From: a virus
Length of the DNA stretch: 48,007 bases
Reading direction: 5' to 3' (one strand)
IMG/VR virus record: IMGVR_UViG_3300046507_000648
Location: 1 to 48,007 of that record
Program-made: the position numbers and the translations under genes
In this document: positions 1 through 48,007 of the stretch, piece by piece
Layout: each line of letters begins with the position of its first letter
Numbering within the stretch: position 1 is the stretch's first letter
Notes under the pieces: model-generated
The model's input: the letters and a program-made list of their open reading frames with translations, nothing else
Told to the model about the DNA's origin: nothing
Databases searched by the model: none

Positions 1-959
1 AAGACATGGTGGTCCTGTTTCTTGCCGCGTGTGCCTTTGACGTTTTCACTGGGTAGGAACCAGGTCTGTCGGTCCAGATCGACATTTTTCCATTCGGCCT
101 GCAGCAACTCGCCAATTCGGCACAAGGTGCCCAGGCTGATCCACAGCGCGAGTTGAGTTTCTTTTTTCAACGGCCGAATGCCATCGTATTTTTGACCAGC
201 GGGGAGGGCGTTGTACTCGAAGGTCATTTGTTGGAAGCGGTTGTGCAATTCCAACAGCTCCGCCGGCGAAAGGATGCGGCTTCTTTCTGCCTCGTAGTCG
301 GCAGGGATCAACGGGGAGATGTCGACCAGTTCAGTCGGATCACCCTCAACCAGTAACGCCCGCCAAGGTTGGCGCTTTCTTGCCCAGTTAAACATCTGAG
401 TGAGGTCGGCGAAGAAACTGATGGCTTGTCGGTGAGCGCCGCGGTTGACCACGGAACGGATCAGCGCCCGAACATCGTGTTCGGAGACGCTGCTCACCGC
501 GGTCCTGCCGAGTGCTGGCAAAAGGTCCTTGTTAAAGCGTCGTTGCAACTCGGCATTGCCGTCTTTACGCGCGACGCCATCCAGCAGCCACGCCCTGGCC
601 AGATCCCGGACGGTCAGCGTTTGCACCTTCGTCGTTTTTACTTGTTCGGCCTCTGCGTTAGCCGCGGCGTATGCCTGTGCCTTGGCGGTTTTCTTATGCT
701 CGTTGGGATTGATCTGCTCATCGATGAGCGCGCGGGCTTGGTTACGCGCCTTGCGGATGTCTGTCAGGGATTTGCGCGGCCAGGTTCCACAGGCGTACTC
801 TTTATTTTGGTCGCCCCAGCGATAGCGATAGAAAAAGCTGACCGAAATACCGTCCTTGCGGACTGAGATTCGCCCGGCGAGATTGCCATCCTCCCGGAGG
901 ATCCGGCCGGCATCATTGGCGGTCAGCGACTCGAGTTCTTTGATGGTGATTTTGGCCAT
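1..959 (-). CDS. Tyrosine recombinase (integrase) of a neighbouring element, C-terminus outside window
   Basis: The minus strand is open from an ATG at 959 to the window edge, giving about 319 residues that begin MAKITIKELESL. The N-terminus has the beta-rich layout of P4-type integrase arm-binding domains (SVSFFYRYRW, then ACGTWPRKSLTDIRKARNQA). The catalytic domain starts with TLCRIGELLQAEW, which holds the first conserved Arg; the HxxR and Tyr boxes lie beyond the edge. It differs from the prophage integrase at 1254-2369, so it belongs to another element whose right end is the att copy at 1120. It starts 160 bp from that core and reads away from it. Confidence 0.85.
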   Translation of the reverse strand, partial: MAKITIKELESLTANDAGRILREDGNLAGRISVRKDGISVSFFYRYRWGDQNKEYACGTWPRKSLTDIRKARNQARALIDEQINPNEHKKTAKAQAYAAANAEAEQVKTTKVQTLTVRDLARAWLLDGVARKDGNAELQRRFNKDLLPALGRTAVSSVSEHDVRALIRSVVNRGAHRQAISFFADLTQMFNWARKRQPWRALLVEGDPTELVDISPLIPADYEAERSRILSPAELLELHNRFQQMTFEYNALPAGQKYDGIRPLKKETQLALWISLGTLCRIGELLQAEWKNVDLDRQTWFLPSENVKGTRGKKQDHHV

Positions 960-977
960 GAAATGGACTCCCCCTAC

Positions 978-1011
978 TTTTACCCCCACAAAAACGTCGG
1001 CTCTTGATGGA
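978..1011 (+). repeat. 34-bp segment similar to 43581-43614
   Basis: 29 of 34 bases match the segment at 43581-43614, in the same orientation, including TTTTACCCC and GGCTCTT. Here it lies between the left integrase start and the att core; the other copy lies just right of the second att core. It could be an integrase arm site or the remains of an earlier related insertion. The rest of 960-1119 shows no gene. Confidence 0.4.
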
Positions 1012-1119
1012 CGTTACTGGACTCTCGTAGAGCAGAACACCGCTGGAGCTCAAGTAAATACTAGCTTAGAAAAATCCAGAGTGAAATTTCGGAGTCTTTC
1101 AAGAAGTATGAAAAAGGAG

Positions 1120-1165
1120 ATGGGGTGCTAGGGGTCGAGTGTTCGAATCACTCCGTCCCGACCAT
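1120..1165 (+). repeat. Left attachment core (3' part of tRNA-Pro(GGG))
   Basis: A 46-bp perfect direct repeat of 43480-43525. It reads as the 3' part of a tRNA: loop ATGGGGT (A32-U33-GGG-G37-U38), 3' anticodon stem GCTAG, T-arm GAGTG-TTCGAAT-CACTC, acceptor strand CGTCCCG and ACCA. The A32/U38 loop ends and GGG anticodon fit tRNA-Pro(GGG). The bases upstream (AAGTATGAAAAAGGAG) are not a tRNA 5' half, so this is not an intact tRNA gene; upstream is another element. Confidence 0.9.
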
Positions 1166-1193: not shown

Positions 1194-1217
1194 CCGATCA
1201 TCTAGATCGGTTTTTTT
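1194..1217 (+). terminator. Intrinsic terminator after the left att core
   Basis: Hairpin CCGATC-atcta-GATCGG followed by seven T on the plus strand, 28 bp after the tRNA 3' end. It probably ended transcription of a tRNA rebuilt by integration. It also lies just beyond the 3' end of the minus-strand integrase. Confidence 0.75.
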
Positions 1218-1253: not shown

Positions 1254-2369
1254 CTATCCGGTGATTTCGCTGATATTTAGGTCCGGAATTGCGTCGGACC
1301 AGATGACTTCCTCGTGGTCGCGCTGGTAGTTTTTGGTCATGCCCTCGCTCGCATGACCTGCAATTTTCTGCCCGTCCTTTCCGGCTTTTTTGTATAGGTG
1401 CAGCGACAGCGCTCGCACTTCGTGGAAGCCCGGCATCTCCTCCTCTTTCCACCCCTTGTAGCATTCCGCTGCCTCCCTTGCGTCCTTGAACGCTCGCGTC
1501 AAATACCGTTCCTCAACCTTCGTCCAGTGGTCCTTGGTCTGCGCCTGTTTCTGTTTCAGGCGATCTGGCTTTCGGTGTATCAGGTACGGCGACGCGGTGT
1601 CGTCACGGCAGCGGCTGATAACCGCCTGCAACTCGGGCGTCACCCGAAAACGTATCCACGCGGCGTCACTGGCCTTGGCCGTTTTCTTTTGCACCAAGTA
1701 GAGGAAGCCCTCCCGCACCCCGTCGAAACGCATATCGAGGATGTCGGTCCGTCGCTGAGCAGTGATGAGGGCCAGGTCGATCGCGTTCTGCAGCCAGGCC
1801 GGCGCTTTCTCCCTGATGGCTTTCAAGCCCTCGACGGTGTGGCGCTTGCGCTGTTTTTTCTCGATGCGATTGATGGTGCTGGCAGCCGGATTATCCGGGC
1901 ACAAGCCTTTGGCCGCCGCATGGTTCAATATGTCGACCAGCAGGGCCCTGCACTGGTTGGCCGTGCGCGGAGTAAGAGCGTCCAGCATTTCCGCAATCAT
2001 GCGGATCGTGATCTGGTCCACGGCCATCCCCTCGAAACTCTTGCGAAAGCGACGGAAGTGCACCGCATACAACCCTAGAGTGCCCTTGGCCAGCTCGCGG
2101 GGTGGCAGGACGTCGCGCTCGTAGATGTCGAGGAAGTCGGCGAACGTTTCTGAGGTATTGTTCAGCACAGTGCTGACCAAGTCAGCGCCACGCATGAATT
2201 CCAAGTTCAATTGCTTCGCCGCGTCGATCGCTTTGATTCGGTCTGTCCCGAACTGGAACCACTTCCCGTCAGTAGGCCGACGGTAGCGATAGGTCGAGCG
2301 CCGCGCATCGAAGTAGAGATTCTGCGGGAGGTTCTTGTTCGCAGTATTGCGCGGCCGAGGGACCATCAT
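1254..2369 (-). CDS. int: Prophage integrase (tyrosine recombinase)
   Basis: A 371-residue lambda-type site-specific recombinase that would join and release the prophage at the tRNA-Pro att core. Residues 1-60 form a small arm-binding domain (YRYRRPTDGKWFQFG), 75-165 the core-binding SAM-like domain, and 175-360 the catalytic domain with R206/R207 (TAQRRTDIL), H316-x-x-R319 (FHEVRALS), H339 (AGHAS) and nucleophile Y348 (TKNYQRDH). The start is ATG-ATG at 2369 after AAGGAG and overlaps the stop of the excisionase gene by 4 bp, so the two are co-transcribed. The stop is 88 bp from the att core, as usual for int next to attP. Confidence 0.95.
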   Translation of the reverse strand: MMVPRPRNTANKNLPQNLYFDARRSTYRYRRPTDGKWFQFGTDRIKAIDAAKQLNLEFMRGADLVSTVLNNTSETFADFLDIYERDVLPPRELAKGTLGLYAVHFRRFRKSFEGMAVDQITIRMIAEMLDALTPRTANQCRALLVDILNHAAAKGLCPDNPAASTINRIEKKQRKRHTVEGLKAIREKAPAWLQNAIDLALITAQRRTDILDMRFDGVREGFLYLVQKKTAKASDAAWIRFRVTPELQAVISRCRDDTASPYLIHRKPDRLKQKQAQTKDHWTKVEERYLTRAFKDAREAAECYKGWKEEEMPGFHEVRALSLHLYKKAGKDGQKIAGHASEGMTKNYQRDHEEVIWSDAIPDLNISEITG

Positions 2370-3073: not shown

Positions 3074-4390
3074 ATGGAAGTTTCAGTTAAGAACTTCGGT
3101 ACCATTCGACATGCTGATGTCCACATTGGTGGACTGACAGTAATTACCGGCGAAAATGACACTGGCAAAAGTACAATCGGTAAAATACTTTTCTCACTTG
3201 TTAAAGCCGTTGCACGATATGAGGAGGACTTGGAGGAGGTAAAGGAGGTAAGAGTTACCAATGAGGCGCAGCAGCTTTACTATACTCTTCGTCGATACGT
3301 TAATATTGCTGATAACGTCGAACTTCGAGATATGTTTCACCCCAGAAAAATGTATGGTCAGTTTAAGCTGGACGCAGTAAAAGCTTATAACGAGCGAATG
3401 GCTGAGTTTGTTAGATTGTCTGAGGAACAAACGATAACGGAAAATACGTTAGGTTCTTTTGTTCATTCGTTAAATAAAATAATGGCAATTGTGAATGAGC
3501 CCGATGATGAGGTATTTGTCATGAGTCGGGCGGTTCGCAAATCATTTTTCTCTGAATTTAACAATGAGATTATTCAACGAGGTACTGAGTCTGCTTGCCC
3601 TGCTTCTATAAGTATTACAGATGGAGCTAGCAAGTTAATTGATATTACTTGGGAGAAAGAAGGCGAACACCGCTTTAGCTTCGTTGATGCTCTCGGATAC
3701 GCAGATGCAACCTATGTTGATTCACCTGCCATAATTCAGTTTCATCATATAGTACGTATGGCTAGGACGCTCTTTGAAAGCGATCCGTCCAGACTTGCTG
3801 TTCCTTTGCATGTAAAGGACTTGGCGAATAAATTAACGGATTCTCAATATGCGGTCGCCGGTCTAGAAGATTTGCTATCTGATGGATATCGAATGCCAAA
3901 TATAACGTCTGAAGTCGGAGCGCTGCTTGGTGGGATGATATCCTATGACGACGTTGCTTCGGACTTTGTTCTTGATCGAAATGGGTTTAAGATATCTTCA
4001 AATAATATCGCTTCTGGAATTAAAGCTATCGGGATTCTGGATATGCTAGTTACTGGCGGAAGCGTTAGAAGGAACTCTCTATTAGTTCTCGATGAGCCTG
4101 AAGTAAATCTTCACCCGAAATGGCAGGTAGCATATTGCGAAATCATTTGTAGTTTGGTTCTTGCAGGTGTGGATATCATTGTTACAACTCACAGTCCGTA
4201 CATCGTGGAAGCGTTGAAACATCATTCAGATAAAACTGGCATAGAGCATAGGTTTTATTTGGCTCAAAAGGTCTCATTTTGCGAGTCGGAATTTCGCGAT
4301 ATTACTCCTGACATATCAATTGCTATTGATGCGTTGGCTGCTCCGCTAATGAGTTTGAATGAAGGCTCTGTTGAAGATTTTTTGAGCTAA
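3074..4390 (+). CDS. AAA/ABC-type ATPase, candidate defence ATPase (OLD-like, no TOPRIM)
   Basis: 438 residues. Walker A is GENDTGKST at 26-34, after an N-terminal strand that starts MEVSVKNFGTIRHAD as in OLD/RecF-like ATPases. An SxG-type signature (NNIASGIKA) lies near 315, Walker B is LLVLDEPEVNLHP with D340-E341, and a switch/H-loop TTHSPYIVEA follows. The middle (about 60-300) is unrecognised and probably helical. No TOPRIM domain follows, so it matches AriA/PtuA-style ATPases that work with a separate effector. The effector candidate starts 13 bp downstream. The pair is AT-rich and points opposite to the surrounding early operon, which suggests recent acquisition. Family is sure; anti-phage role is inferred. 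Confidence 0.75.
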   Translation: MEVSVKNFGTIRHADVHIGGLTVITGENDTGKSTIGKILFSLVKAVARYEEDLEEVKEVRVTNEAQQLYYTLRRYVNIADNVELRDMFHPRKMYGQFKLDAVKAYNERMAEFVRLSEEQTITENTLGSFVHSLNKIMAIVNEPDDEVFVMSRAVRKSFFSEFNNEIIQRGTESACPASISITDGASKLIDITWEKEGEHRFSFVDALGYADATYVDSPAIIQFHHIVRMARTLFESDPSRLAVPLHVKDLANKLTDSQYAVAGLEDLLSDGYRMPNITSEVGALLGGMISYDDVASDFVLDRNGFKISSNNIASGIKAIGILDMLVTGGSVRRNSLLVLDEPEVNLHPKWQVAYCEIICSLVLAGVDIIVTTHSPYIVEALKHHSDKTGIEHRFYLAQKVSFCESEFRDITPDISIAIDALAAPLMSLNEGSVEDFLS

Positions 4391-4403
4391 CCAAGGAGAG
4401 GTT

Positions 4404-5003
4404 ATGTCCCTCGAGCAAGATATTTATGACAAGTTGGTTGTAGAGTATCCAACTCATATTAAAACTATTACGGATCTTAGCTTTAACCCTACTGGTGCAA
4501 AAAATTTTATTGGATCTCATGTCACTGGGTTTGATTTTGATCTGGTATTTAATCTTTCGCCTGGTTATAAAACGTATCATAATGAAAAATCCCCAGATGC
4601 GTTGTTTTGTGTAAAAGATAAGTTGTATTTTGTTGAATTTAAAGAGGGGCTGCATAAAAAGATAGAGATTAGATCGAAGATACATGAAGGTATTGTTACT
4701 TTATTTATGTTTGTGCAGCAATTTTTACCTCATATATCAAAGGCGGATTTTTGTAGTTTAGATATAAATTATGCAGTTGTGGCTCGTGAAACGCAATCGT
4801 TTAGCTCTGTCCAGTTGGCTCTAAAGGCTGCTTCTGAAAAATATCAGCTTAAAAATATGGAAGGCTTTATTGTTAGAAAAACGTTTTATACTGTCGACAG
4901 TGCCAAAATAGCTGCATTATTAAAGGGGGTGACGAATGGAGCGCTTAGTTATATCGATTACTATGATGGCTCCCCGGCGGCACCAACTCGTATTTTAGCT
5001 TAA
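4404..5003 (+). CDS. Small protein with PD-(D/E)xK-like nuclease motif, partner of the ATPase
   Basis: 199 residues, start ATG after AAGGAGAGG. P64-D65 (KSPDALFC), then a strand ending E78-F79-K80 (LYFVEFKEG), gives the spacing of a PD-(D/E)xK nuclease core: D65, E78, K80. Acidic residues in the first helix (E4/D6/E14) and the following helix (KIEIRSKIHEG) also fit. I do not recognise a named family. It shares an operon, base composition and orientation with the upstream ATPase, so a toxic nuclease controlled by that ATPase is the natural reading. The fold comes from motif reading only and could be wrong. Confidence 0.55.
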   Translation: MSLEQDIYDKLVVEYPTHIKTITDLSFNPTGAKNFIGSHVTGFDFDLVFNLSPGYKTYHNEKSPDALFCVKDKLYFVEFKEGLHKKIEIRSKIHEGIVTLFMFVQQFLPHISKADFCSLDINYAVVARETQSFSSVQLALKAASEKYQLKNMEGFIVRKTFYTVDSAKIAALLKGVTNGALSYIDYYDGSPAAPTRILA

Positions 5004-6993: not shown

Positions 6994-7668
6994 TTACCCG
7001 TGAGTGATGGATAGATCACTGATCACGCAAATCGAACCGTCCTCAGGATCGGTCGTCTCGGAGTAATCGATCTGGTTGTACACGCCGCCGTGGAAAGCGA
7101 GAGTCTTCGTGTCCCAGGTGTTGTCGAGGCGCATGATCGCGGAAGTAGATTTGACGCCGTTACAGCTCGCCGATACAGAAACGGCACCGGTGGAGTTGGC
7201 GTGAATGTTGATCTTGAAGAGTGCGCCGAGCGGCACGTTTTCCAATACCGTCGAGTTGACTGGATCGTCTTGTAGGTAGCTCGACCGGAACCCCAAGGTA
7301 ATTTTGCCTTTGTTCCAAAACACCTTTACCGGTGGGCGTTCAGAGCCCTGCACATGGATTTGGCCGATCACGACCTTCTGCAACGAATTGACCTTCGTCA
7401 GCCGCATTTCTTGACGGCACCAATGGTCTGCGGCACTAGAAAACAGCCAGTAGCCAGGCTCTTTCCATTCGCAGCGAGTCCGATGGACGCTTTTACTGGA
7501 GGCGCCAAGGGTGGGCGCCGTCATTTGCAATGATCCGTCAGGAAGCATCGCAATGACGCTTGGGCATTCGATCAATGCTCGCCAGCCGATCAAGTCAAGG
7601 GAGATAGGGTTCGTGTCGGAAATTGGAAGCGGGGTGGCGATGATGAAGTTGCTGATGTCCACAGTCAT
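6994..7668 (-). CDS. Polysaccharide lyase family 7 (alginate lyase)
   Basis: 224 residues from the ATG at 7668 (ribosome site AAGGAA), about the length of P. aeruginosa PA1167 as I recall it. PL7 marks are R65-C-E-W-K-E70 (family RSELRE), Q103-I-H105 (VIGQIHVQG) and Y197 (HGGVYNQIDY), which form the active-site cleft. PL7 enzymes cut alginate by beta-elimination. No signal peptide is visible, so release would need cell lysis. It is the first gene of the leftward early operon, behind a promoter covered by two repressor operators; expression should rise when the prophage is induced. It could help escape from or spread through alginate-rich biofilm. Confidence 0.85.
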   Translation of the reverse strand: MTVDISNFIIATPLPISDTNPISLDLIGWRALIECPSVIAMLPDGSLQMTAPTLGASSKSVHRTRCEWKEPGYWLFSSAADHWCRQEMRLTKVNSLQKVVIGQIHVQGSERPPVKVFWNKGKITLGFRSSYLQDDPVNSTVLENVPLGALFKINIHANSTGAVSVSASCNGVKSTSAIMRLDNTWDTKTLAFHGGVYNQIDYSETTDPEDGSICVISDLSITHG

Positions 7669-8003
7669 TTTCGATTCCTTATTGCCCGTTGATTTCCCGT
7701 CTGGCCCTGTCGCCAAGGCCAGCCAGTGAAATCTGTTTTCCGCCCCATGCTCGGCGCCGCGGTTTCCCCACCTGCCCAGGTCACGCATTTCGTGTTCGGC
7801 GTTCTTCCCAGGTGGCTTGCATGGTTTGGCGTACTCCCTTGTAGGGAGCCCGGCCAGTTCCAGAGCTGGCATGGAGATCGAAATTTGTGTTTCGCGCTGT
7901 ACCCGTTGCCGGGGATCGATCCGCGAAGATTCCTGACTGTTAAAGAGCGGCGGGGCTGGTTGCTTCCCTTCGCTGCGGTTTGTCGCTGCGATGGGTTAAA
8001 TAT
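7669..8003. other. Leader between leftward promoter and lyase gene
   Basis: About 335 bp without a supported gene. A 117-codon minus-strand frame (GTG start inside the operator at 8016, stop overlapping the lyase ATG) has no ribosome site and odd composition, so I leave it out. A long leader would suit an N-like antitermination site, but no boxA/boxB-like pair was identified. Confidence 0.4.
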
Positions 8004-14650: not shown

Positions 14651-14967
14651 ATCATCAATTCAAGGCTGGTGACCTAGCGCTGATCGTAGGGTCGTCCTGC
14701 ACCGAGAACATTGGCAAAACTGTCCGACTGGTTGAGTTTGTGCCAGTTGGCGGCGTCCCGCGTGTGAATGGCGAGGCTTATACCCCACGACTGCATCCGA
14801 CTTGGGTTGTTGAATCGCCAGACGGGGCGCCATCACTCATCGTGCCCAGAGCTTCGACTGGTCGCTTGGAAAACGTAGCGGTTGGCGCTTGCCGTGAGTC
14901 ATGGCTGATGCCCCTGCGTGGCGACTTCGCTCCTACAGAGCGGAAGTCGAAGGCGGTATCAGCATGA
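14647..14967 (+). CDS. Hypothetical phage protein, 106 residues
   Basis: ATG overlaps the nuclease stop. The N-terminus (FKAGDLALIVGSSCTENIGKTVRLVEFVPVGG) looks like a KOW/SH3-type barrel, and the C-terminus carries SWLMPLRGDFAPTERKSK. It is common near VRR-NUC in phages but has no proven role. Confidence 0.65.
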   Translation: MNHQFKAGDLALIVGSSCTENIGKTVRLVEFVPVGGVPRVNGEAYTPRLHPTWVVESPDGAPSLIVPRASTGRLENVAVGACRESWLMPLRGDFAPTERKSKAVSA

Positions 14968-16244
14968 CCAGTGCCGCTGTGAAGATGTCCGATGCCGAGA
15001 TCAAGCGGCAGGCTGCCGGCGATGTTCGGGATCTGCGCGACATCGAGAACCGTGGCCTGTACCTGCGCTTCACCCGGGCTCGCAAACGGGCGTCCTGGTA
15101 CTTGGTGGTGAAGGGTGAGTGGAAGCGAATAGGCGCCTTCCCTGACCTCAACACCAAGCAGGTGGTCGCGGCGCTGCCGGGCATCCGCTTGCGCCTTGAG
15201 GCTGGCGCTGGCGCAAACCTGTCGAAGTGGATCACCACCGGTGAGCTGCTGACCTGGTACGCCGAACGCATGGCCCGCGATCGTAACCTGTCCAGCAAGC
15301 GCAAGAAGACTGGTGCATCGCTGATTAAGTGCCACTTGATTCCGTGCTTGGGCACAGTGCCGATCGCCGACATCATCAAGGCGACCCTGGACTACAAGTT
15401 CATGTGGCCGCTGCAGGAAAAGATCAGCCTTGACTACGTGCGGTCGGCATTCCAGCTGCTGGCCCTGGCGTTTCGTCAGGCGTTCAAGCTGGGTCATATC
15501 TCATCCAATCCGATGGCGGCGATCAAGTTCCACGACTTCTCCAAGGCCAAGGTGTGGGTGAAGCCGTCTCGTCTGCGTGGCGTGCAGTTGCAGGGTCTGC
15601 TGGAGCAGTTGGTCGCCGTCATGGTGTCTGCGCCATTGGATGCCATGCTCGCGTTGATGATGCTTTGCCACGGCACGCGCATCGGCGAAACCCGGCAGGC
15701 ACGTTGGTCACACATCAGCCTGGCTGAACGTGAGTGGTTCATTCCCGCTGAGCACACCAAGACCGGTGTCGAGCATCACCTGCCGCTGACCGAGCAGGTG
15801 TGTGCACTGCTGGTTCGGTACCGCGAGGGTCAGTACGCCCGAGGCTACGACGGCCAGTTCCTGTTCCCAGCGCGCAATGGCAAGGCCCTCAGTGAAGGTC
15901 AGGCCAGTGCCGTGTTCACCCGGTTGGGGCAGGGCGAGTGGACCAGCCATGACCTGCGCAAAGTAGCCCGGACCGGTTGGGCAGACATCGGCATCGACCA
16001 CCTGATCGGTGAGCTACTGATCAACCACGCCATGGGTCACAACGTGAAGGTGTACATCCAATCGGACGTGATGGGTCGCAAGCGTGATGCCTTGCAACAG
16101 TGGCACGACCATCTAGACCAGAAGGGTTTTGCCCTGATTCACGGATTGACCGGCTTTAGATTCGGAGATTCCGGTAATTCGCTGGAAGCCGCAGAACATA
16201 AGGCCTGCGAGGCCATTCAAGAATCAACCATAGGCGAGGTTTAA
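14964..16244 (+). CDS. Second tyrosine recombinase within the replication module
   Basis: 426 residues from the ATG overlapping the previous stop. Catalytic set: R239 (CHGTRIGETRQARW), K266 (HTKTG), H329-x-x-R332 (SHDLRKVARTGW), H355 (INHAMGH) and Y364 (KVYIQSD). It resembles integrases with a DUF4102-like N-terminus yet sits 13 kb from the att site and points the other way from int. A role in resolving genome multimers or in recombination is more likely than integration. Confidence 0.85.
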   Translation: MTSAAVKMSDAEIKRQAAGDVRDLRDIENRGLYLRFTRARKRASWYLVVKGEWKRIGAFPDLNTKQVVAALPGIRLRLEAGAGANLSKWITTGELLTWYAERMARDRNLSSKRKKTGASLIKCHLIPCLGTVPIADIIKATLDYKFMWPLQEKISLDYVRSAFQLLALAFRQAFKLGHISSNPMAAIKFHDFSKAKVWVKPSRLRGVQLQGLLEQLVAVMVSAPLDAMLALMMLCHGTRIGETRQARWSHISLAEREWFIPAEHTKTGVEHHLPLTEQVCALLVRYREGQYARGYDGQFLFPARNGKALSEGQASAVFTRLGQGEWTSHDLRKVARTGWADIGIDHLIGELLINHAMGHNVKVYIQSDVMGRKRDALQQWHDHLDQKGFALIHGLTGFRFGDSGNSLEAAEHKACEAIQESTIGEV

Positions 16245-43263: not shown

Positions 43264-43479
43264 CGCGATTCCTCCGTGGATGGAGGCAGCGTAGCAGGGT
43301 AATTCGTAGCTTTGGAATAGTGTGCATGGTCGACAGGCGCCGGTACTTCTTTGCGCAAAACCTCCGCTGCAGGCCACGGTTTACCGTTTGCATAAGCACA
43401 AAAAAGCGGATGTTTTGCCACCCTCAAAAGGGGTCGTATCCTTTTTAAATCAATAGGTTAGGTCGATACAGTCCCCAGC

Positions 43480-43525
43480 ATGGGGTGCTAGGGGTCGAGT
43501 GTTCGAATCACTCCGTCCCGACCAT
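43480..43525 (+). repeat. Right attachment core (3' part of tRNA-Pro(GGG))
   Basis: Identical to 1120-1165. The five bases before it (CCAGC) match four of five of the anticodon stem CTAGC but no further tRNA 5' half is present. The 3' side leads into the chromosomal tRNA terminator. Confidence 0.9.
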
Positions 43526-43532
43526 ATAATTC

Positions 43533-43567
43533 AAGGGGTTGCGAGATTTTATCTCGCGACCCCTTTT
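43533..43567 (+). terminator. Terminator of the original tRNA-Pro locus
   Basis: Long stem AAGGGGT-t-GCGAGA / TCTCGC-g-ACCCCTT with loop TTTTA, followed by TTTTAT. Lies 8 bp after the CCA end. Confidence 0.8.
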
Positions 43568-43580
43568 TATTTTTGGGCGT

Positions 43581-43614
43581 TTTTACCCCTACAAAAACTC
43601 TGGCTCTTGGTGGA
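43581..43614 (+). repeat. 34-bp segment similar to 978-1011
   Basis: 29 of 34 bases identical to the segment beside the left integrase. No gene is seen between the terminator and 43695. Confidence 0.4.
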
Positions 43615-43694
43615 ATCTTCAGCTGATACAAAGGTCATGGCGCGAGAAGAGTGCCTCGCTGTGTCCTGGTCGCTCGAGCAGAAGGGGACGACCG

Positions 43695-44609
43695 TTAAAG
43701 AGCCTTTTCCGGCGCCGGTTGGTCGTTGGGTTGGGCGATGATTGTTTTGAGCTCTGCGCTCATGGGGAATTTGAGATTCAAGCCTTTGGGAGGGATGGGC
43801 TGAGTAAACCATTTATCGTAGATGGCGTTGATTTCGCCCGAGACGAAAAGTGACTTGATCGAGTCATCCACGACTTTTTTGAGATCCGGATCACCCCGAC
43901 GCATTGTGCAACCATAGATTTCGTTGGATTGCGGGGTGCCGGTCACCACCCAATCTTCCGGTTTCTTTGCCTTGGCCATTTCGCCCGCCAGCAATGCGTC
44001 GTCCTGCATAAACGCAATGGCGCGGCCGGACTCGAGCATTTGGTAAGACTCGCCAATGTCTTTGGCAGAGATTACGTTCATGTTCATCTTTTTCTCGGCA
44101 TTCATGACCTTGAGCATCCGCTCGGCAGTGCTGCCAGCAGTAGTCACTACGTTCTTGCCGTTGAGATCTTGAAAGTCCTTGTAAACCGAATCCTTCCTGA
44201 CCAACAGGCGGGTGCTGGCTTCAAAAATGCCGACCGAGAAGTCGACCTGCCGGGCTCTCTCGGCGGTATTGGTTGTGGAGCCGCACTCCAGGTCCACAGT
44301 GCCGTTTTGCACCAGTGGGATACGCGTCTGTGATGTCACGAGGTTGTATTGTACGTTCAGCTTGGGCATACCGAGTTCTTGCTTGATAGCCTCGACAATC
44401 TTTAATTGAATGTCATGGGAGTAGCCCACCGGCTGACCGGATCCGTCGGCAATATAAGAGAAGGGAATGGACGAGTCTCGGTGACCCAGGGTGATGGTCC
44501 CCGAGGTCTTGATTTTCTTAAGCGTGCCGGTGGGTTCGGCAGCCATGAGGGCAGTACTACTTAAGGCCGCAGTCAGGGTAACGCCCAGGATTGCAGGGAA
44601 GGCACGCAT
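43695..44609 (-). CDS. Amino-acid ABC transporter substrate-binding protein (GltI-like)
   Basis: 304 residues from ATG 44609 (GAGGAGC upstream); the signal peptide is MRAFPAILGVTLTAALSSTALMA. The mature protein has SBP_bac_3 marks (LKKIKTSGTITLGHRDSSIPFSYI, VGYSHDIQLKIVEAIK, VDLECGSTTNTAERARQVDFS), close to glutamate/aspartate binders. Last gene of the chromosomal minus-strand cluster; it may import the substrate that the enzymes upstream break down. Permease genes are not in view. Confidence 0.92.
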   Translation of the reverse strand: MRAFPAILGVTLTAALSSTALMAAEPTGTLKKIKTSGTITLGHRDSSIPFSYIADGSGQPVGYSHDIQLKIVEAIKQELGMPKLNVQYNLVTSQTRIPLVQNGTVDLECGSTTNTAERARQVDFSVGIFEASTRLLVRKDSVYKDFQDLNGKNVVTTAGSTAERMLKVMNAEKKMNMNVISAKDIGESYQMLESGRAIAFMQDDALLAGEMAKAKKPEDWVVTGTPQSNEIYGCTMRRGDPDLKKVVDDSIKSLFVSGEINAIYDKWFTQPIPPKGLNLKFPMSAELKTIIAQPNDQPAPEKAL

Positions 44610-44704
44610 CAAAAGCTCCTCATAAGGGTGAGGCGAGTCTGTTTCGGACTCGCTCATCTTTGGCTCGGCGAGAGGTCTCGCGGGGCTTGGCGACTTGCTT
44701 GTTG

Positions 44705-46096
44705 TTAGTGACGGTCCAGCCAGACGGTCTGTGCATTACAGAATTCGCGCACACCGAAATGCGACAGCTCACGGCCAAAACCGCTTTTCTTTACGCCGCC
44801 GAAAGTGACGCGTGGATCGGTTGCGCAATAGCCATTGATGAACACGCCTCCGGTTTCCAGTTCGCCGGCCAGCTTCTGGGCCAGTTCGACATTGCGTGTG
44901 TAGATGGTCGAGGCGAGCCCGAATTCACTGTCATTGGCCAGTTCCAGAGCATGTGCGGCGTCCCGCGCAGTGATGATCGATGCCACGGGTCCAAACAATT
45001 CTTGTTTGAATGAGGTCATCTGGTCGGTGACATCACCGAACACCGTAGGCTCGTAGAAGTTTCCAGGCCCTTCAGCCTTTCTGCCGCCCAACAACAAGGT
45101 CGCGCCTTCTTCCAGGGTATCCCGGACCTGACGATCTAGCTCATCGCGCAGATCAAAGCGGGCCATGGGTCCGATGTAAGTGTCTGTGGCCAGTGGATCG
45201 CCAATGACCAACTTGCAGGTGGACTTGACAAACTTGCGGGTAAACTCCTCGACAACGCTTTGCTCGACAATCAGGCGTTTGGCAGCCGCGCAGACTTGTC
45301 CGGTGTTTTGATAGCGGCCAATCACAGCGGCTTTGACGGCTTCGTCTAGGTCGGCGTCGTTGAGCACAATGAATGGATCTGAACCACCCAGTTCCAACAC
45401 GCACTTCTTCAAGGCTGCACCCGCCTGCGCGCCAATAGCCATGCCAGCTCGAACACTTCCAGTGAGCGTCACTGCGGCGATGCGAGGATCTGCTATCGCA
45501 GTGGAGACACCGTCGGGCGTGACATTGATGACTTCGAACACACCTTCAGCAAAGCCGGCGTGCTTGAACGCGTCTTGCAGCAAATAGGCGCATCCCATCA
45601 CGTTCGGCGCATGTTTGAGGACGTAGGTATTGCCGGCAATCAACGCCGGAACGGCGCCGCGCAGCACCTGCCAGACGGGAAAGTTCCACGGCATCACGGC
45701 GAGAATCGGGCCCAGTGGACGATATTCAATTCGTGCCTTTCCGCCCTCAACCTGTGTGGGTTCGGCGGTCAGCATGGCGGGGCCGTGTTCGGCGTACCAT
45801 TCGCAGAGCCGCGCGCACTTTTCAATTTCACCGAGCGCCTGAGTGATGGGTTTACCCATCTCTTGGGTGATCATCTTCGCCATCGTTTCTGCGTTGTCGC
45901 GCAATGCCCTCGCCAAAGCGATCAGTACTTGCGAACGCATTTCGATGGGTTGGCTGCGCCAGGTGGAAAACCCTGTTATCGCACGTGACAGTGATGCCTC
46001 CAGTTCCGATGCGGATTCGAAGGGGTAGTGGCCTATCTGCTCACCATTGGCGGGGTTGATTGAAATGGCATGGGTAAGGCTGGAAACGTTAGTCAT
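44705..46096 (-). CDS. NAD(P)-dependent aldehyde dehydrogenase (succinate-semialdehyde type)
   Basis: 463 residues from ATG 46096. Catalytic Glu in VLELGGSDPF and Cys in GQVCAAAKR; NAD motif GSVRAG. Length and GQVCAAAKRLIVEQ resemble E. coli Sad (YneI), so succinate semialdehyde or a similar acid aldehyde is the likely substrate. A longer frame to 46243 is not supported by a ribosome site. Confidence 0.9.
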   Translation of the reverse strand: MTNVSSLTHAISINPANGEQIGHYPFESASELEASLSRAITGFSTWRSQPIEMRSQVLIALARALRDNAETMAKMITQEMGKPITQALGEIEKCARLCEWYAEHGPAMLTAEPTQVEGGKARIEYRPLGPILAVMPWNFPVWQVLRGAVPALIAGNTYVLKHAPNVMGCAYLLQDAFKHAGFAEGVFEVINVTPDGVSTAIADPRIAAVTLTGSVRAGMAIGAQAGAALKKCVLELGGSDPFIVLNDADLDEAVKAAVIGRYQNTGQVCAAAKRLIVEQSVVEEFTRKFVKSTCKLVIGDPLATDTYIGPMARFDLRDELDRQVRDTLEEGATLLLGGRKAEGPGNFYEPTVFGDVTDQMTSFKQELFGPVASIITARDAAHALELANDSEFGLASTIYTRNVELAQKLAGELETGGVFINGYCATDPRVTFGGVKKSGFGRELSHFGVREFCNAQTVWLDRH

Positions 46097-46157
46097 GACA
46101 CCGTCCTGTAGGATGGGAATGGATGCACAGCTTCTAAGCAACAGCGCCGGTGTTGAA

Positions 46158-46973
46158 TCAGATCGCGCGAGCCAAAATGGATTGGGCGCGACCAATGACC
46201 GGCGCGTCGACCATTTGCCCATCCAGCACGAAAACGCCTTCACCTGAACGAGCGGCTTCGATAATGCGTTGCGCCCAGTGCAATTCTTCTTGGCTTGGTT
46301 TTAGCGCCTGATGAATGATCGCGACTTGGGTTGGATGGATACACAGCGCGCCACCAAAGCCCATGTCGCGTGCAAAATGAACAGCACGTAGCAGCCCTGC
46401 GGTGTCCTGGATCGACGGAAATACCCCATCCAACGCTGGAGCGAGCGCGGCAACCCGGGTGGCAAGCAAAACGGCGTAGCGCGCATGGCTAAGGATTTCT
46501 TCAGCGGCAGGGCTGCCAGTAGACAGGTTCAGGTCCAGACCCAGATCCAGGCTACCGAACGACAAGCGCTCAACGCCTTGAGTACCGGCAATCTCGTTGA
46601 GTGCTGACAAGCCCTTCGCGCTCTCGATGATTGGCCAGATCGGTTTTTCGGTACCGGCAGCTGTGGTGACCTGTTTCGCGCTTTCTGCTTTGGGCAGCAG
46701 AATTCCGATAACGCCGGCGTGGCGTCGGCAAAGATCCAGATCCGCAACATGCGCCCAGTGATCCGGGGCATTCACTCGGACCAGAATCCGTGTATCCGGG
46801 GCTTCGCTCAGAAATGCGTCGAGATTATTCCTCGCCTGCTCCTTGAGGTTTTCTTGCACGGCATCTTCCAAGTCAACGATGACCCGATCCGCCCCGGTGG
46901 CAATAGCTTTTGAGATGCGCTCTGGTCGAGTGGCCGGCACAAACAGGGCGGAGCGAACAATTGATTTGCTCAT
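46158..46973 (-). CDS. CoA-ester lyase (HpcH/HpaI, CitE-like)
   Basis: 271 residues. CitE family: RSALFVPATRPERISKAIATGADRVIVDLEDAV, RVNAPDH, GILLPKAES, IIESAKGL, LSFGSLDLGLDL and ALCIHPTQV. Catalyses reversible cleavage of acids such as malyl- or citramalyl-CoA. Overlaps the MaoC gene by 4 bp, so the two steps are coupled. Confidence 0.92.
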   Translation of the reverse strand: MSKSIVRSALFVPATRPERISKAIATGADRVIVDLEDAVQENLKEQARNNLDAFLSEAPDTRILVRVNAPDHWAHVADLDLCRRHAGVIGILLPKAESAKQVTTAAGTEKPIWPIIESAKGLSALNEIAGTQGVERLSFGSLDLGLDLNLSTGSPAAEEILSHARYAVLLATRVAALAPALDGVFPSIQDTAGLLRAVHFARDMGFGGALCIHPTQVAIIHQALKPSQEELHWAQRIIEAARSGEGVFVLDGQMVDAPVIGRAQSILARAI

Positions 46974-47815
46974 GGCGTTGCTCCATAGCTGAACTCGATC
47001 TCTCCGATCTGTGCTGTGCCGTCCTGATTGCCAGCCCAGACCTGTGCCTTGCCGTTTTCGATTAGACGTCCGCCCACCTCGAAAGGCTGAGGCGAAATCA
47101 GAGGTCGTACTCCGCGGAATGCGAAACGCTCCAGGCGCGCAGTTGGATGCGCTTTGGTAAAGGCACGCAAATTCAACGTGGCGATCAATGGACCATGTAC
47201 CACTAGCCCCGGATAACCTTCGATCTCTGTCACGTAAGGCCAGTCATAGTGAATTCGATGGCCATTGAAGGTGACTGCGGAATAACGGAACAACAGGGTT
47301 GGGGAAGGCTCGATCCGTTCCTGCCATTGGCCTTCAGGTAACGTTTCGGTGCCGTGCAGTTTGGGCGGGGTAGGTTCGCGGTAAACAATGTCCTGTTCAT
47401 CTTGCAGGGCACGTTTGCCGTCCTGGTAAAACTCATGACGTACCGTGACGAACAGCAAGGAACCCGTGCGACCGTGCTTCTCCTCGACGTTTTGGATGGT
47501 CGATACACAAGTCACTTCAGCCTCCACTTTTAACGGCTGGTAAAACTCAAGTCGGCTGCCCGCCCACATGCGATTGCGGTTATGGGCCGGCGGTAAAAAG
47601 CCCCCAAGCGCTGGGTGGCCATCCGGCCCCAGTTCGCTGGCACCCACCGGCTCCTGAAAAAATGCCCAGTGCCACAGGGGCGGCAGCGGCTCGCCGGGTT
47701 GTGGAGCCGACTCGTCCAACGTCGCGGCAATGCGTCTGACCAGAGTGAAACTGATCCGGTCCTGGCTTTCCTGACGTCGTCCAATCCAGGCGGAAAAATC
47801 GGAACTGCTGCTCAT
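46970..47815 (-). CDS. MaoC-type dehydratase (mesaconyl/itaconyl-CoA hydratase-like)
   Basis: 281 residues, double hot-dog fold of the FAS1-like/Meh type: ISFTLVRRIAATLDE, PLPPLWHWAFF, RMWAGSRLEFYQPLKVEAEVT, then the hydratase half RYSAVTFNGHRIHYDWPY with catalytic H/D. Together with the CoA lyase it fits hydration of mesaconyl- or itaconyl-type CoA and cleavage of citramalyl-CoA. Substrate is inferred. Confidence 0.85.
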   Translation of the reverse strand: MSSSSDFSAWIGRRQESQDRISFTLVRRIAATLDESAPQPGEPLPPLWHWAFFQEPVGASELGPDGHPALGGFLPPAHNRNRMWAGSRLEFYQPLKVEAEVTCVSTIQNVEEKHGRTGSLLFVTVRHEFYQDGKRALQDEQDIVYREPTPPKLHGTETLPEGQWQERIEPSPTLLFRYSAVTFNGHRIHYDWPYVTEIEGYPGLVVHGPLIATLNLRAFTKAHPTARLERFAFRGVRPLISPQPFEVGGRLIENGKAQVWAGNQDGTAQIGEIEFSYGATP

Positions 47816-47840
47816 ATTCTTTGCTCCAGTCGTTCAGTGA

Positions 47841-48007
47841 TCAGGCCAGGGCAGCCATTTCTGGAATCGCTTCAAAAAGATCCGCCACTAGGCCGTAATC
47901 GGCCACCTGGAAGATCGGCGCTTCGTCGTCCTTGTTGATCGCAACGATCACTTTGGAGTCTTTCATGCCGGCCAGGTGCTGGATCGCGCCGGAGATACCG
48001 ACGGCGA
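47841..48007 (-). CDS. Electron transfer flavoprotein alpha subunit, C-terminus
   Basis: 55 residues to the stop: [30 protein letters not shown], then [14 protein letters not shown], the FAD-binding end of ETF alpha. The start is beyond the window. It precedes the MaoC gene by 25 bp, so an acyl-CoA dehydrogenase is likely further upstream. Confidence 0.92.

Follow-up and report, generated by a model that had tools for sequence, protein, structure and literature searches.

A lambda-like prophage probably stacked between two genomic islands at tRNA-Pro(GGG) in a fluorescens-group Pseudomonas

The DNA analysed here (the window) is an entire IMG/VR virus record of 48,007 bp, with base 1 at the start of the record. 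It contains two exact copies of a 46-bp core, at 1120-1165 and 43480-43525, both on the plus strand; 100 dinucleotide shuffles produced zero copies, and none is expected by chance. The core is the 3' half of a tRNA-Pro gene. At locus L003 of a relative, an intact tRNA-Pro of 77 nt has the anticodon GGG at nt 35, and the coordinates place the start of the core at nt 33, where the 7-nt anticodon loop begins, in agreement with an earlier note on this DNA. The same note held that neither att copy keeps the tRNA 5' half, and no tRNA was indeed found in the window, either by an ARAGORN scan of its whole length or by an Rfam scan at gathering thresholds. Its wording of the missing half was wrong: relatives have a tRNA-Pro(GGG) 5' half that starts CGGGGCG (in L003, CGGGGCGTAGCGCAGTCCGGTAGCGCACTAGC) and not CGGGACG. 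A guessed 5' half, which differs from the true one in relatives, has no match in the window. The core length needs a qualification. When it is aligned with the tRNA, the right copy agrees over 49 bp (AGC at 43477 plus the 46), and the 46-bp limit of the repeat is set by island-type sequence to the left of the left copy. Core copy 1 marks the junction between a first island (island 1) and a prophage, and core copy 2 that between the prophage and the DNA referred to below as island 2.

Between the cores, at 1166-43479 (plus strand), lies a lambda-like temperate prophage with PHROGs and Pfam matches to terminase, portal, major head, tape measure and tail fibre J. By PHROGs, structural, repressor-region and replication genes are all present together with an integrase at one end, and the prophage also encodes CII-like, lambda P-like and antirepressor domains. 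The integrase gene (1254-2369, minus strand; 371 aa) has a lambda-type arm domain by domain and PHROGs matches. Just past the left core, the prophage carries a terminator-like hairpin and T run (1194-1217, plus strand), read from the sequence, followed by three GCGCAAAA repeats on the plus strand (1224-1231, 1235-1242 and 1246-1253), the last of which overlaps the integrase stop. A single GCGCAAAA is found at the right end (43353-43360, plus strand). These repeats are putative arm sites of the prophage integrase.

The prophage holds a second tyrosine recombinase gene (14901-16244, plus strand; 447 aa, Phage_integrase domain) between the replication region and the terminase. The best megablast match to 1166-26165 is Pseudomonas phage SC_8_H2H8_2017, with 21% covered at 80.8% identity in the replication and terminase region; the match begins well to the right of the left-end integrase, and most of the query is uncovered. 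In that phage, too, an integrase is annotated under its match to the prophage. Adjoining the prophage integrase, 3074-5003 (plus strand) encodes an AAA ATPase of 438 aa and a 199-aa partner. The ATPase matches many defence ATPase models (HEC-02A, PD-T4-4_A, AriA and PtuA), the partner matches no model searched, and the two are possibly a prophage-borne defence pair. An Alginate_lyase2 domain protein, encoded at 6994-7872 (minus strand), matches phrog_31475, a PHROG of unknown function, at 1.4e-141.

To the left of core copy 1 lies part of a gene for a tyrosine integrase, IntA (3-959, minus strand), of which the window edge leaves 319 aa of about 486. The fragment is open throughout and 93% identical to the 486-aa IntA of genome G006. 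Its Pfam domains (Arm-DNA-bind_3, Phage_int_M and a partial Phage_integrase) are the basis on which it was judged to be of P4 type, and it has no significant similarity to the prophage integrase (best E 0.85), so that the gene upstream of the left core is, as the earlier note stated, a different, P4-type integrase. IntA stands at the right, tRNA-distal end of island 1, where it is accompanied by a putative IntA arm-type site, TTTTACCCCCACAAAA (978-993, plus strand), a motif that the window has just twice. An IntA end was matched in 70 of the 398 sampled Pseudomonas genomes (E <= 0.001; some matches are weak), and several genomes have IntA twice. At all 30 fetched loci the core directly follows the IntA end; what lies to the right of that core, sorted by eye, is the window's phage type in 9, an island left end in 8 and other sequence in 13.

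On the other side of the prophage, a terminator-like hairpin at 43533-43570 (plus strand; arms 43533-43547 and 43551-43565, then a T run) follows core copy 2, and the same hairpin type is found at the island left ends of relatives. Also present at those left ends is the putative IntA arm-type site TTTTACCCCTACAAAA, here at 43581-43596 (plus strand). The TTTTACCCC motif at this position has its sole partner in the window at 978-993, beside IntA. Around the paired motifs (including 43581-43614), 29 of 34 bases agree, and the pair scores 24, compared with at most 18 for random window pairs and at most 12 for shuffles. From 43695 on, the gene content is chromosome-like in appearance. All on the minus strand, the genes are those for an SBP_bac_3 substrate-binding protein (43695-44657), which also follows the tRNA or core in G003, G004, G005 and G006; by domain match, an aldehyde dehydrogenase (44705-46096), an HpcH/HpaI aldolase/citrate lyase (46158-46973) and a dehydratase-like protein (FAS1_DH_region; 46970-47815); and the 3' end of ETF alpha (47841-48007), cut by the window edge and aligned to locus L224, where the gene is ETF/ETF_alpha. 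These would be cargo of island 2.

Since the window is the complete record and nothing lies further left, the question of the left neighbour was answered through relatives. From 80 core-bearing stretches together with G003, G004 and G006, we obtained 26 multi-core arrays (80 cores) and 9 single cores. The arrays are a non-random sample, picked among the matches listed with cores on one contig, plus further search loci; matches of 28 of the 398 sampled genomes were left out of the context reading. In 25 of the 26 arrays, the 5'-most core alone carries the tRNA 5' half, in line with the expectation of the earlier note that it would be found on a core further to the left. The exception, G220b (G220:C1:2991255-2998721; L296 and L297), is an island pair without the 5' half that lies about 0.6 Mb from a tRNA-linked pair on the same strand, so displacement does occur. 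All 32 tRNA-linked cores (7 of them from single-core genomes) are unmutated, as are 45 of the 57 cores without a tRNA 5' half; the other 12 have 1 to 5 changes, and decayed cores are undercounted because the searches tolerated few mismatches. IntA closes 24 of 26 elements that have an island left end, as expected of the upstream element with its integrase far from the tRNA that the earlier note proposed, and at 4 of 28 IntA ends the element has a left end of another type. Relatives such as G004 show the order tRNA, core, island, core, in which the island is bracketed by a direct repeat of the tRNA 3' end; the window shows one end of each island.

The tandem arrangement itself, also put forward in the earlier note, is seen directly in G306, G219 and G375, which read tRNA 5' half, core, island left end through to IntA, core and the window's phage type. 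Neighbours of the kinds island|island, island|phage and phage|island each occur in other genomes. The longest array read, in G281 (G281:C1:2301454-2545212; L267-L274), has 8 cores over about 244 kb and at least three elements with an island-type end to either side. A hand tally of core copies in the 398 sampled genomes, which also counts cores away from the main array and in which the integrase was not verified for each, gave at least three in 53, at least four in 14 and none in 2. Among the genomes and IMG/VR stretches read, no contig showed a whole succession of island, window's phage type and island, and the arrangement of the window therefore rests on its two junctions. A heavily decayed array of about 3 kb in G008 (L031) comprises a truncated phage integrase of the window's type, part of the substrate-binding gene and what is left of an IntA, and its far core has two changes.

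From these observations, the window very probably derives from an array at tRNA-Pro(GGG) of a fluorescens-group Pseudomonas with the order tRNA 5' half, core, island 1 ending in IntA, core, prophage, core and island 2. Each element's att site would carry a copy of the tRNA 3' half, usually with a terminator of its own; the element's tyrosine integrase would recombine this copy with a resident core, and every insertion would add one element and one core. The tRNA 5' half would stay on the leftmost core, where the tRNA would be complete. A prophage sandwiched between two islands at the same site has neither end in contact with the front half of the tRNA. What the sequences show directly is the junctions, the signatures at the element ends, the order rule in relatives and the match of the prophage-free site. 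The actual left neighbour in the source genome would be an island-bearing stretch of the kind seen in the relatives; the order of insertions in the array, like integration and excision that still work today, is something that we infer.

In silico removal of the prophage bears directly on this placement. We joined the flanks (1-1165 plus 43526-48007) and set them against 18 loci, in 15 distinct places, chosen for IntA followed by an island left end. They align across the join in 18 of the 18 island|island loci, and in 7 of the 18 rows (5 distinct places) the alignment is gap-free over about 1,260 bp at 90.6-92.4% identity. This puts the prophage exactly at a boundary between two islands, or else at the att site of a single island in circular form. 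On the second reading the prophage entered a single excised island circle, both the IntA end and the cargo end come from that one molecule, and a second island does not exist; the att site of such a circle predicts the same prophage-free sequence as two neighbouring islands do, and the window alone fits both. Island|island junctions occur within single chromosomal contigs of other genomes, such as G281, G316 and G217, so that no circle is needed to account for them, and a free circle is normally rare in a sample. We regard the circular island as unlikely; because island|island neighbours are found on single contigs of other genomes, placement between two islands appears the more likely.

Much less probable is the order given in the earlier note, in which ordinary chromosomal flank follows the right core. 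The left part of that order (tRNA 5' half, core, element A, core, prophage) agrees with G306, G219 and G375. The right part fails, in that the flank begins with the hairpin and arm-like site of an island left end and aligns to such ends, and its genes lead to IntA and a core in relatives. In G004, the tRNA is followed by most of the right-flank DNA, with an IntA remnant and a second core 13.4 kb on; in G006, a complete IntA and a core come after 23.6 kb of such DNA, which encodes ETF subunits, a CoA transferase, an acyl-CoA dehydrogenase, regulators and transporters; and in G003, as in G008, related stretches finish at IntA remnants with mutated cores. The closest right flank with no core in its fetched part (L009) is uninformative. 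We rejected 43526-48007 as host flank on the strength of this run of the same genes to IntA and a core. Together with the hairpin and the TTTTACCCC motif, it indicates that 43526-48007 most likely forms the left end of another island, from the family to which island 1 belongs, in which case the array goes on past the window.

An assembly chimera, in which sequences from separate places were linked through the short repeated core, is slightly less probable again. In its favour, the core is a short sequence of which many genomes have several identical copies, and the first bases of the contig fall within IntA, a gene that several genomes have twice. Against such a misjoin, both junctions recur in independent records. 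The exact IntA|core junction was found in 10 IMG/VR stretches, 6 of which run on into the window's phage type, as do several genomes; the junction of phage-type end, core and island left end was found in 11 IMG/VR stretches. For three of these 11 (G414, G415 and G416) the other core was fetched, and it carried the tRNA 5' half in all three; G407 has the order phage, 14.9-kb island, phage. That the source genome lost its tRNA 5' half or moved it elsewhere, for which the displaced pair of G220b offers a precedent, is hardly credible given that 25 of 26 arrays retain this half at their 5' end and that every tRNA-linked core is unmutated.

The elements of such stacks appear to belong to at least three integrase groups. 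In addition to IntA and the prophage integrase, a third group (about 393-416 aa, 70-98% mutual identity) lies to the right of the core in other arrays, and in our comparison it had no match to either at E <= 1. The core-adjoining integrase of G262 is 84% identical to the prophage integrase. Of 10 proteins scanned in this survey, 7 are integrases and 3 are not. Three unrelated groups would seem to use one core. Of 91 non-redundant sequences covering the 80 bases to the right of a core, 83 have a hairpin followed by a T run, compared with 64 of 998 stretches taken at random from those loci, by a criterion of our own that was not tuned on a reference set; several of the remaining 8 have a strong hairpin with a weaker T run. 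This difference suggests that the elements tend to bring a terminator along with the tRNA 3' half. The parts of the literature consulted on terminators carried by att sites held no direct match.

Several elements share one target, each bounded by the same core (26 arrays, 80 cores; the prophage is cored at both ends), and in 25 of 26 arrays of the relatives the remainder of the target gene adjoins the terminal element alone. The window is thus a case of tandem accretion, a phenomenon already known, with PAGI-97A-like islands. In the sections consulted of a review of tandem accretion of integrative elements (PMC5704250), elements of distantly related integrases are likewise stacked at one tRNA-type site with shared internal att sites and decayed members; the review mainly concerns ICEs, IMEs and CIMEs, whereas here islands and lambda-like prophages are involved. 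According to the available part of PMC8373256, 41 of 226 complete P. aeruginosa genomes contain islands at tRNA-Pro(ggg) with a P4-type integrase at the far border and a 49-bp repeat, which may form a distinct family. These PAGI-97A-type islands share with ours the target, the P4-type integrase at the 3' border, the perfect direct repeat of the tRNA 3' end and variable cargo. They differ in host, being from P. aeruginosa, whereas the islands here are in other Pseudomonas and stacked with each other and with prophages; their repeat is 49 bp, compared with 46 bp at the IntA end here and 49 bp between the tRNA and the prophage right end. That part of the paper describes no tandems at tRNA-Pro(ggg). 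By description, the islands resemble the published family.

Prophage 04 of Pf-5, described in the part seen of PMC2647930 as a 13.5-kb remnant in tRNA-Pro, is likewise a prophage, there defective, with its integrase adjoining tRNA-Pro in the fluorescens group; the likeness holds at the level of tRNA-Pro, and that remnant is described there alone, not stacked. Islander, which also resolves arrays through repeated tRNA fragments, lists under stricter criteria 125 tandems of at least two and 4 of at least three in 2168 genomes (PMC4383910, as far as its consulted sections go), compared with 53 of 398 genomes with at least three cores here, where the integrase was not verified for each. A few search wordings in the open-licence literature, seen in part, returned no description of tandem arrays at tRNA-Pro(GGG) in Pseudomonas.

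Tentatively, and with somewhat less confidence than doubt, we suggest that tRNA-Pro(GGG) of Pseudomonas may be an unusually open-ended accretion site, with at least three unrelated integrase groups on one anticodon-loop core, terminator-carrying elements, seven-element stacks and composite mobility. The interest of the locus is moderate and comes mainly from how common and how long arrays are at this gene. For the record itself, the boundary is corrected, in that the DNA to the right of 43525, filed as virus, is most likely that of a genomic island and neither phage nor plain host flank. A search for prophage ends that relies on an intact tRNA at one end misses stacked insertions at tRNA-Pro(GGG). 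The locus is also a natural setting in which to ask how unrelated integrases can use a single attachment core and leave the tRNA gene unharmed. If the suggestion is correct, islands and phages could leave or move as composites by way of the cores that they share, and a metabolic island could then be carried along with a lambda-like phage.
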